A stretch of DNA of 43,688 bases from Elusimicrobiota bacterium. GTDB lineage: Bacteria; Elusimicrobiota; Elusimicrobia; UBA1565; UBA9628. Below, piece by piece: positions 1,444 through 35,506 of this stretch. Position numbers and translations under genes: made by a program. The stretch covers positions 1 through 43,688 of the forward strand of contig JAUYSH010000144.1 of NCBI GenBank assembly GCA_030696455.1, given 5' to 3'. The number at the start of each line of letters is the position of its first letter. Within the stretch, counting starts at the first letter, position 1. A model generated the notes under the pieces. The model did no database searches. It saw nothing but the letters and a program-made list of their open reading frames with translations, and was not told where the DNA came from.

Positions 1444-2133
1444 ATGAACACCCCCCTCCCCGCGCTGATCGCCTGCCTCCTGTCCGGCTGGCCGCAGGCT
1501 CCCAAATGCCATGAGGAGGCGGTCGCCCGGGGACCGGCGGTCATCGGCGAGATCAAGCCGGCGCTGTTCGAGGCGCTGCGCGGCGACCCCGGCCGCGAGG
1601 TGCGCGAGCGCAACAACGCCATGGCGCTCACCGCGTCGGCGACGCGCCGCGACCCGGCGCACCCCAAGACCGGGTCGTTGAGGAAGGCGAAGGCCGCCGC
1701 CGAGGAGCTGGGGCGCCTGGGAGAGTGGAAGCCGCTGCTCTCCCTGGGGACCATCACCGCGGTCGAGGGGCTGGCGAGGCTCGAGGAGCCTCCCCCCAAG
1801 GTGCTCAAGGCGCTGGCCCGCTGGGCGGGCGGCAAGGATGCCCGCCTGCGCTACGCGTCCGTGGACGCCTTGAAGGCGTACGGCCCCAAGGCGGCGCCGA
1901 TCGTGCCCGAGATGATCGCCCTGCTCGACCGGGGCGACGACGCCCGTTTCTCGGCTCTGAAAGTCCTGGAAGGGCTGGGCCCGGCGGCGGAGGCGGCGGT
2001 GCCGCGGCTGGGCGTGCTGCTCAAGGACAAGGGGTGGAAGGACGCGGCCTACTCGGCGCTCTCCGAGATCAAAACGCCGGAGGCGAACCGTCTGCTCGAC
2101 GACAACCCCCTGTGGGTGCCCGTCTCCCCCTAG
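1444..2133 (+). CDS. HEAT-repeat protein, exported or short leader
   Basis: The 229-aa protein contains alpha-helical repeats of HEAT/PBS type, clearest at residues about 115-215, where ALKAYGPKAAPIVPEMIALL and ALKVLEGLGPAAEAAVPRLG are successive units. Such solenoids bind other proteins; the partner is unknown. The N-terminus (MNTPLPALIACLLSGWPQA) could be a weak signal peptide. AAAGG lies about ten bases before the ATG, so this gene has a conventional leader, unlike many neighbours. From this gene onward the base composition is that of the main chromosome, so the acquired segment probably ends before 1444. The gene stands alone between the TA modules and a peptidase gene with its own promoter. 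Confidence 0.75.
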   Translation: MNTPLPALIACLLSGWPQAPKCHEEAVARGPAVIGEIKPALFEALRGDPGREVRERNNAMALTASATRRDPAHPKTGSLRKAKAAAEELGRLGEWKPLLSLGTITAVEGLARLEEPPPKVLKALARWAGGKDARLRYASVDALKAYGPKAAPIVPEMIALLDRGDDARFSALKVLEGLGPAAEAAVPRLGVLLKDKGWKDAAYSALSEIKTPEANRLLDDNPLWVPVSP

Positions 2134-7124: not shown

Positions 7125-7881
7125 CGCGCTCTACGAGGGCAAGGTCCGCCACCGGCGCCTGGCCCCGGTCCCGCACGAATTCGACTACACCCTATTCATG
7201 GTGTACCTCGATCTCGCGGAGGTCGACACGGTGTTCGCCGGGCGCTGGCTGTGGAGCGCCTCGCGCCGCGCGGTCGCGCGCTTGCGCCGCGAGGACCATC
7301 TCGGAGATCCCGCGCTCCCGCTCGATCGATGCGTGCGCGACCTGGTCCAAGAGAAGACCGGCCGCCGCCCCGAGGGCGCCATACGCCTGCTCACCCACCT
7401 CGCCTATTACGGCTGGTGCTTCAATCCCGTGAGCTTCTATTACTGCTTCGACCGTGCCGGCGCGCTCGAGGCCGTCGTGGCCGAGGTCAGCAACACGCCC
7501 TGGCTCGAGCGGCGCTGCTATGTCCTCGACCGAAAGGCAAGCCTCACCCCGGGGGAGGCGCTGAGCTGGCGGGCCCCCAAGCTCATGCACGTCTCGCCGT
7601 TCATGAAGATGGAGCAGGAGTATGTCTGGGCGCTTCGCGCGCCCGACGCGGGCCTCACGGTGCACATGGAGAACCTCGAGCGCGGCCAAAAGATATTCGA
7701 CGCGACCATGACCATGTCCCGCGTCGAGATCACCGGCCGCTCGCTCGCCTCGGCCCTGCTGCGCTGGCCGTTCATGACCCTTTTCGTCGTCGGCGGGATT
7801 CACTGGCAGGCGCTCAAGCTGTGGCTCAAGGGCGTGCCCGTCATCGACCATCCCAAGAAGCGCGCCGCGGAGGCTTCCTGA
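7117..7881 (+). CDS. DUF1365 family protein
   Basis: The 254-aa protein starts with ALYEGKVRHRRLAPVPHEFDYTLFMVYLDL, the standard DUF1365 opening, and keeps the family motifs LLTHLAYYGWCFNPVSFYYCFD (residues about 92-113), VSNTPWLER, and HVSPFMKME followed by a hydrophobic C-terminus (WPFMTLFVVGGIHWQALKLWLKG). The biochemical role is not established to my knowledge; the gene almost always sits with FAD-dependent amine-oxidase-like and CFA-like genes, so a step in fatty-acyl modification is likely. The ATG lies inside the end of the preceding gene (8-bp overlap), and the stop is shared with the next start, so it is part of one translationally coupled operon. Confidence 0.88.
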   Translation: MHSALYEGKVRHRRLAPVPHEFDYTLFMVYLDLAEVDTVFAGRWLWSASRRAVARLRREDHLGDPALPLDRCVRDLVQEKTGRRPEGAIRLLTHLAYYGWCFNPVSFYYCFDRAGALEAVVAEVSNTPWLERRCYVLDRKASLTPGEALSWRAPKLMHVSPFMKMEQEYVWALRAPDAGLTVHMENLERGQKIFDATMTMSRVEITGRSLASALLRWPFMTLFVVGGIHWQALKLWLKGVPVIDHPKKRAAEAS

Positions 7882-34712: not shown

Positions 34713-35144
34713 CTAGCCGCGGCGGGCGTGGCGTCGCATCATGCAGTCGTTCGACACGACGAGCAGCCCCGCCGCGCGGGCCATACGCTCGCCCTCGTCG
34801 TGGTAGACGCCGTCCTGCAGCCAGACGGCCTTCGCCTTCTTCGCGATCGCCTCGAGGATGGGCGTCAGCGCCTCTTCAGGGCGGCGGAACACGCACACGA
34901 CGTCGACGGGGAAGGGGATGTCCGCCACGCTCGGCCAGCACTTTTCCCCTAGGATTTCCTTATGGCCGGGATTGACGGGAACGATGGTGTAGCCCTGCTC
35001 CTTGAGGTACTCGGAGACGTAGTGCGAGGGACGCTCAGGCTTCGGGGACATGCCGACGACGGCGATCACGCGCATCCCCAGGATCTTTCCGACGGCGTCG
35101 TCGGGAGGGGCGCCCGAGGGAAGGCGGCAGGCCTCTTCGCTCAG
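34713..35144 (-). CDS. CoA-binding (YccU-like) protein with apparent CTG start
   Basis: The 143-aa protein matches the CoA-binding/YccU family: ACRLPSGAPPDDAVGKIL leader, IAVVGMSPKPERPSHYVSEYLKEQGY, VPVNPGHKEILGEKCWPSVADIP, VVCVFRRPEEA and AVWLQDGVYHDEG. Function in the family is poorly known; the fold binds CoA or nucleotides. The conserved leader lies upstream of the first in-frame ATG, and the frame offers no ATG, GTG or TTG there. CTG at 35144 overlaps the stop of a 12-codon ORF as CTGA. A one-base deletion joining the two frames is the alternative. Confidence 0.75.
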   Translation of the reverse strand: MSEEACRLPSGAPPDDAVGKILGMRVIAVVGMSPKPERPSHYVSEYLKEQGYTIVPVNPGHKEILGEKCWPSVADIPFPVDVVCVFRRPEEALTPILEAIAKKAKAVWLQDGVYHDEGERMARAAGLLVVSNDCMMRRHARRG

Positions 35145-35179
35145 GCGGCTTCCACAACGGAGTGGTCTACGTCGGCCAT
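35141..35179 (-). CDS. 12-codon ORF preceding the CoA-binding gene
   Basis: ATG at 35179, three bases after the stop of the CPXCG gene, encodes MADVDHSVVEAA and stops at TGA 35143-35141, which overlaps the CTG start of the next gene. It is either a real coupling mini-ORF or the true N-terminus of the CoA-binding protein, cut off by a frameshift. The peptide is plausible as such an N-terminus. Confidence 0.45.
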   Translation of the reverse strand: MADVDHSVVEAA

Positions 35180-35182
35180 TTT

Positions 35183-35506
35183 TTAAGCCGCCTCGACACC
35201 CACGTGCGCCTCGCCGTCGTCGATCTCGATGTGCGCGACATAGGCGCGGCAGCAAACCGTGCAGTCCTGATCGATCGATTGACCGTCCATGTCGGCGATC
35301 ACATGGAGCTCGGAGCCCTCGGCGCAATGCGGGCACTCGATGGTGATCCACTGGTCCAGCCGCTCGGTCGAGGCCTCGACGCTCTGCTCCTTGAGCACCG
35401 TCTCCATGATCCGCTCGGCGGTCTTATGCTCGGACGCGTCGGCGTGGGGAACGGACGCGCCCTTTTTCGCCTTCTTCGCCTTCGCGGGGGCCTTGGTCTT
35501 CGGCAT
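35183..35506 (-). CDS. CPXCG-motif cysteine-rich protein
   Basis: The 107-aa protein has a Lys/Ala-rich N-terminus (KTKAPAKAKKAKKG) and a C-terminal zinc-ribbon-like domain with CPHC (residues about 63-66) and CTVCCRAYVAHIEIDDGEAHVGVE, which fits the CPXCG-motif family although the Gly is Ala here. Family function is unknown; the four Cys probably bind zinc. The basic tail could bind nucleic acid. It has a near-perfect leaderless promoter (35541-35513) and appears to lead an operon with the CoA-binding gene. Confidence 0.8.
   Translation of the reverse strand: MPKTKAPAKAKKAKKGASVPHADASEHKTAERIMETVLKEQSVEASTERLDQWITIECPHCAEGSELHVIADMDGQSIDQDCTVCCRAYVAHIEIDDGEAHVGVEAA

Follow-up and report, generated by a model that had tools for sequence, protein, structure and literature searches.

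The window, by which we mean the whole 43,688-nucleotide stretch of DNA analysed here from an uncultured bacterium placed in the Elusimicrobiota, carries on its minus strand a junction made up of a Cys_rich_CPXCG gene, a 12-codon open reading frame (ORF) and a CoA_binding_2 frame. The upstream gene (PF14255; 35183-35530, minus strand) encodes 115 amino acids from its first ATG and matches Cys_rich_CPXCG at 3.1e-9. Its product ends in ...HVGVEAA, followed by a TAA stop at 35185-35183. Just past this stop, and separated from it by the triplet AAA, the ATG of the short ORF begins at 35179. This mini-ORF (35141-35179, minus strand) reads ATG GCC GAC GTA GAC CAC TCC GTT GTG GAA GCC GCC TGA and encodes MADVDHSVVEAA. 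A GAGGCGG in the tail of the CPXCG gene (35188-35194, minus strand) forms a Shine-Dalgarno-like site for its ATG, where the 17 upstream bases have a duplex energy of -7.1 kcal/mol against a gene median of -4.6.

The final C of the last GCC codon of the mini-ORF and its TGA together make a CTGA (35141-35144, minus strand), in which the stop (35143-35141) overlaps a CTG (35144-35142). The frame opened by this CTG, LSEEACRLPSG...ARRG-stop, ends at 34713 and gives, if read from the CTG, a CoA_binding_2 protein of 143 amino acids (PF13380; 34713-35144, minus strand). A preliminary description of this DNA, which gave no strand, had claimed that a CTG opens the CoA frame and overlaps a 12-codon ORF after the previous stop, and inspection of the minus strand confirmed this layout. 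Shine-Dalgarno-like pairing ahead of the CTG (35144) is -3.3, comparable to random sites within genes (mean -3.6), against a gene median of -4.6. Searches of the window returned no Rfam match at gathering scores and no tRNA.

The further claim that the N-terminus of the CoA protein has no ATG, GTG or TTG also held. In this frame the closest usual start 5' of the CTG is a TTG 37 codons away, within the CPXCG gene, and the first one 3' of it is an ATG at residue 24 (35073-35075, minus strand; MRVIAVVG...), with none nearby before that residue. Other near-cognate codons (ACG, AAG, AGG, ATT, ATC and ATA) are absent from 12 codons before the CTG to residue 19. We rejected the in-frame codons further upstream (TTG 35255, TTG 35327, GTG 35336 and GTG 35351) as starts; all four fall within the CPXCG gene, which is read in another frame, at 37 to 69 codons from the CTG. 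Gene callers commonly accept ATG, GTG and TTG only, and with such a start set the annotation of a gene of this kind would come out too short or would be extended to a spurious start far upstream.

The CoA protein matches CoA_binding_2 over residues 25-139 at 5.7e-40. Its score of 136.8 bits stands against a curated cut-off of 22.8, and the match takes in positions 1-115 of the 116 in the profile, so that the whole domain is present. The predicted structure (mean pLDDT 87.5, pTM 0.84) has the fold of solved PF13380 members, with a TM of 0.86 by query length to both 3qa9, the best PDB match, and 2d5a. This model places a helix at residues 16-22, ahead of the first strand, and has low confidence for residues 1-10. 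The alignment of the solved relative 2d59 begins at profile position 8, near residue 10 of the window protein, so that 2d59 includes the N-terminal helix region. Residues Cys6-Arg7 are invariant in 18 aligned proteins, which are a chosen set. In sequence and fold the protein agrees with family members such as PH1109 (2d59/2d5a) and TT1466 (1iuk/1iul), and the window gene is odd in its proposed start codon only.

Start codons and junctions in related genomes

We located the CoA protein in 15 of 19 same-genus genomes, including the genome of the window itself (G000); almost all of the titled records from the genus are labelled as metagenome-assembled. The CPXCG gene lies directly upstream in 13 of the 15 loci, and these 13 junctions were compared. 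In G018 and G014 it was not seen upstream in the stretch shown, and in both the CoA gene has a nearby ATG. G003 and G016 have no mini-ORF; there the TGA of the CPXCG gene itself forms the CTGA at this position, and 11 nt separate it from the conserved Cys codon downstream, exactly the spacing of the mini-ORF stop in the window. The homologous CTGA was recorded in loci L003 and L004. The candidate CTG of G008 and G001 sits 5 bases before the CPXCG stop, giving an 8-nt overlap. Candidate starts elsewhere are GTG in G005, G012 and G017, TTG in G013, and ATG in G006, G011, G010 and G015. The GTG of G012 is homologous to the CTG of G003 and G016 (GTGACGGACGCGGCC-TGC versus CTGACGGACGAG(T/G)CC-TGC), as seen when GTGACGGACGCGGCC is set against CTGACGGACGAGTCC and CTGACGGACGAGGCC. 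If the CTG is the start, the CTGA at 35144-35141 provides the stop/start overlap of a termination-reinitiation pair. The start codon in that overlap is not of the usual type (ATG, GTG or TTG), being CTG in the window as it is in the candidates of G003, G016, G008 and G001.

Thirty loci entered a wider table of start codons and 23 were parsed, L019 and L025-L030 being dropped for lack of AVVGxSPK or of the Cys-Arg motif. An ATG, GTG or TTG occurs within 15 codons before the Cys in 17 of the 23 and in none of the other six, five of which have a CTG at -4 or -5. The sixth (L017, G029; 1880-2100, minus strand), from another genus of the family, is a CoA orthologue with no ATG, GTG, TTG or CTG within 15 codons before the Cys; it has an ATC at -4, which falls in a 7-nt overlap with the CPXCG gene. 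The Cys-Arg motif is absent from four loci outside the genus (L025 and L028-L030), and L027, inside the genus, has Arg-Arg in its place.

The mini-ORF of the window lies in a 42-nt insertion (35141-35182, minus strand) that codes for K-MADVDHSVVEAA-stop in the CPXCG frame. Because the insertion repeats the CPXCG tail, VEAA-stop, a stop is kept against the CTG in the window genome. The insertion is absent from 11 of the 13 junctions and is common to the window genome and G015 (L005), where it is without the mini-ORF's ATG and stop and where the CoA gene starts with ATG; the mini-ORF is intact in the window genome alone. Given its position in the insertion and the state of the insertion in G015, the mini-ORF is, on this comparison, not a conserved small protein, and it is not a lost N-terminus either. 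When a 19-base probe was used to look across the genus for another origin of the insertion, its only exact matches were the G000 and G015 loci; four other sites matched with two mismatches, versus one for a reversed control pattern. In the CPXCG tree G015 is placed beside G000 (support 70); in the CoA tree it groups with G006 and G001 (support 83) and is not sister to G000.

These junctions also bear on a second option raised in the preliminary description, in which a recent one-base frameshift, or a sequencing error, has detached MADVDHSVVEAA as the true and natural N-terminus of the CoA protein. The 12 residues do follow an ATG with a good Shine-Dalgarno-like site, as such a reading would have it. 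Against this, the CTGA is found without any mini-ORF in G003 and G016, and the insertion is confined among the 13 junctions to the window genome and G015, which has a separate ATG for the CoA gene. An identical CTGA in orthologues was the very observation that the description had named as refuting the frameshift, and the proposed N-terminus is a repeat of the CPXCG tail carried by the insertion; an uninterrupted frame through the 12 residues was found in 0 of the 12 other same-genus junctions. We therefore regard a frameshift or sequencing error as hardly credible and reject the frameshift option. A slip of the ribosome at the TGA, which would fuse the mini-ORF (or the CPXCG protein) with the CoA protein, has a parallel in the minor stop suppression with frame change described at the uPPE2/PPE2 AUGA overlap in the available text of PMC11260477. 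In the relatives the CPXCG stop and the Cys codon are 4, 10, 11, 13, 22, 49 or 53 nt apart, so that no slip geometry is conserved, and slippage appears highly improbable.

Coding constraint behind the CTG and the internal ATG

Over the 18 codons from the Cys, the five CTG species gave a pN/pS of 0.42 in frame versus 2.55 and 0.84 in the other two frames. Constraint is looser in this N-terminal segment than in the remainder of the gene, where the ratio is 0.18, and the eight species with a usual start follow the same pattern (0.55 for the segment versus 0.30 for the rest of the gene). Over the 18 codons, the summed amino-acid differences among the five CTG species came to 45, as opposed to 108.6 (sd 9.5) in neutral simulations run on the tree of these species with fourfold-site composition, and none of 2000 simulations was as low; the simulated nucleotide differences overshoot (191 versus 118 observed), so this neutral contrast is exaggerated. 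By these comparisons, the segment after the CTG evolves as protein in the CTG species. It is the absence of any usual start, combined with a conserved coding segment behind the CTG, that exceeds chance.

The main rival start, and a live alternative, is the internal ATG at 35075. In this case the CoA protein would have 120 residues, and the CTG and the codons after it would be untranslated in the CTG species. As would be expected of a real start there, an ATG stands at codon +18 in all six of the parsed orthologues with no usual start, as opposed to 5 of the 17 others (one of them at +19). The Fisher p for this contrast is about 0.005, calculated by hand with kinship ignored, and five of the six orthologues come from one genus and so are not independent. 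The Pfam domain also begins only at residue 25. However, in these same five CTG species the 18 codons ahead of the internal ATG evolve under protein-level constraint, and the usual starts of the 17 parsed relatives sit 3 to 12 codons before the Cys-Arg motif. A start at the internal ATG would in addition delete the helix predicted by the model at residues 16-22. Weighing these points, we consider this start rather unlikely. It is also conceivable that both starts are used, restart at the CTG giving a long form and the internal ATG a short one, which would account for a constrained N-terminal segment and an internal ATG occurring together in all five CTG species. However, there is no direct sign of two products and the internal ATG is preceded by weak pairing (-3.5), and we think such dual use improbable.

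CTGA at other junctions and a proposed restart at the CTG

To place the CTGA in its genomic setting, phases were counted over 983,119 bases of this genome, the window included, with 827 script-called genes. At gene junctions, the restart phase contains 32 CTGA and the other open phase 28, with a further 23 located where the frame is not yet open. The corresponding counts are 114, 7 and 2 for ATGA, 63, 9 and 6 for GTGA, and 16, 12 and 4 for TTGA. A CTGA string at a gene junction is thus at about chance level, and the phase counts (32 versus 28) rule out CTGA as a general restart signal of the genome. Of the in-phase CTGA, ordinary TGATG overlaps account for 5 of the 8 listed in the first sample from G000 and for 11 of the 24 listed in relatives. 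The 983 kb and 827 genes gave two candidates with CTGA as their sole start, DUF2878 and one in L174, the latter with an ATG 8 codons further upstream. The CoA gene is missing from this count, since so short a mini-ORF escapes gene calling. The relatives yielded four such candidates, of which two are CoA orthologues, one is in G010 and one in L150. At position 5494 of L143 (G010), a gene that we take to be hemE-like is split at a CTGA, perhaps by an assembly frameshift; CTGA can also mark errors.

The second CTGA of the window (7878-7881, plus strand) joins the stop of a DUF1365 gene to the CTG start of a DUF2878 gene. The preliminary description had pointed to this junction as another one lacking a usual start, and no ATG, GTG or TTG was indeed found within reach of the DUF2878 coding start. 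G010 has ATGA at the same junction, DUF2878 begins with ATG and has no DUF1365 overlap in three other congeners, and 14 of the 19 same-genus genomes gave no DUF2878 match. Beyond these two CTG junctions, no clear further one was seen in the genome sample; since the window was singled out for its CTG junctions, their frequency is not a genome estimate. A literature search for CTGA at overlapping genes returned no paper.

These data allow us to propose that the CoA_binding_2 gene is probably translated from the CTG at 35144 by termination-reinitiation. The comparison shows a start position near the Cys-Arg motif that is common to the relatives, a CTG candidate there in five species, constraint on the codons behind it and no frameshift. 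Support for a CTG start comes from the GTG at the homologous codon in G012, from the CPXCG gene upstream in 13 of 15 loci, from the helix region in 2d59, from the invariance of Cys6-Arg7 and from the DUF1365/DUF2878 CTGA. Several points weigh against a restart at the CTG: CUG is a poor start, CTGA is not clearly enriched and the Shine-Dalgarno-like pairing is weak. The variation of the motif (L025, L028-L030 and L027) and a mini-ORF that is intact in one genome only also count against our explanation. Re-initiation at CTGA, the other option of the preliminary description, is supported by comparison, with the internal ATG at 35075 still standing as the alternative to it.

In the published record, CUG accounts for 0.024% of bacterial start codons and has 0.86% of the efficiency of AUG in E. 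coli, according to the available text of PMC11497404. An upstream CUG of Caulobacter dnaA is reported to give a toeprint and to be unused in vivo (PMC8443254, available text), and Ribo-RET in M. tuberculosis, as far as the text of PMC9094748 is available, found ATG, GTG and TTG enriched and CTG not. Termination-reinitiation at 4-nt overlaps, on the other hand, is established (PMC6728339, as available). The start codon is rare, yet the gene junction is of a known kind, and on sequence grounds a CTG start is likely.

Where the insertion is missing, as in G003 and G016, a ribosome that reaches the TGA of the CPXCG gene would terminate and restart at the overlapping CTG. In the window genome, the 42 inserted nucleotides put distance between the CPXCG stop and the CTG. 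Here the ribosome may restart at the mini-ORF ATG just past the CPXCG stop, read 12 codons, stop at the mini-ORF TGA and restart at the overlapping CTG, in which case the mini-ORF acts as a relay. Under this model ribosomes would initiate at the CTG, the mini-ORF would be translated, reinitiation would be weak and output would be low; translation of the CoA gene is predicted to depend on upstream translation. Overall, the CoA gene is probably one that starts at CTG within an operon-like overlap and that, in the window genome, is reached through a mini-ORF relay.

Two known systems resemble this arrangement. In the ATGA pairs with 4-nt overlaps of Huber et al. 2019 (PMC6728339, available text), the genes are co-directional and the upstream TGA overlaps the downstream start, as here, and the same ribosome is suggested to restart. 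The window differs from them in that its start is CTG and in that the stop comes from a 12-codon relay ORF rather than from the upstream gene. In the uPPE2-PPE2 pair of M. tuberculosis (PMC11260477, available text), a short uORF in a different frame has a 4-nt AUGA overlap with the downstream start and relays translation to ppe2, a candidate likeness to the mini-ORF. That start is AUG, and the uORF lies in a B12 riboswitch leader and was reporter-tested, whereas the window mini-ORF lies between two genes and is known from sequence. Retention of the CTG as a start candidate in five species makes a comparative case for a CUG start overlapping a stop, and the insertion suggests how a tiny ORF can preserve coupling once two genes are pushed apart.

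The initiator tRNA of the Elusimicrobiota

Given that a changed anticodon stem in the initiator tRNA reduces discrimination against CUG in vitro (PMC11497404, available text), we examined this tRNA. The three G-C pairs of the stem are described as conserved in the available texts of PMC11497404 and PMC10486304. The initiator tRNA of G000 (L221; G000:C119:5403-5476) has A29-U41, G30-C40 and G31-C39. We scanned the phylum with a pattern left free at positions 29 and 41 and with two mismatches allowed (111 rows, counted by eye). A29-U41 stands instead of G29-C41 in 105 of the 107 matched Elusimicrobiota genomes (119 searched); G049 and G161 have G29-C41 only, and G101 and G140 have an extra G29-C41 copy. 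By comparison, G29-C41 is present in 15 of 15 matched control genomes and A29-U41 in none of them (25 searched, three mismatches allowed). The 25 controls, taken from other loci, comprised 19 Marinimicrobia or Neomarinimicrobiota, five from other named groups and one titled only 'bacterium'. No mention of A29-U41 was found in the available text of one paper on initiator tRNA and Elusimicrobiota.

These findings invite the idea that start-codon selection is altered phylum-wide, in that the loss of G29-C41 would loosen the grip of the ribosome and let CUG starts like the two of the window persist at stops. We consider this very doubtful. The variant tested in PMC11497404, as far as its text is available, is the pair 30-40 and not 29-41 as in the Elusimicrobiota; as CTGA is also not clearly enriched, a link between A29-U41 and CTG starts is speculation. 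The change in the initiator tRNA is a separate, testable lead on start-codon fidelity.

Some further observations on tRNAs were made in the window genome. A second match to the initiator-tRNA pattern in G000 (C144:2758-2789) also has A29. The acceptor stem of the L221 initiator tRNA carries U1-A72, read in this one genome; initiator tRNA is described with a C1-A72 pair (PMC11497404, available text). Finally, ten tRNA genes lie within about 1.2 kb at L235 (120-1361; G000:C117), and nine of their ten anticodons also occur elsewhere in the genome; this array possibly derives from a mobile element or phage.
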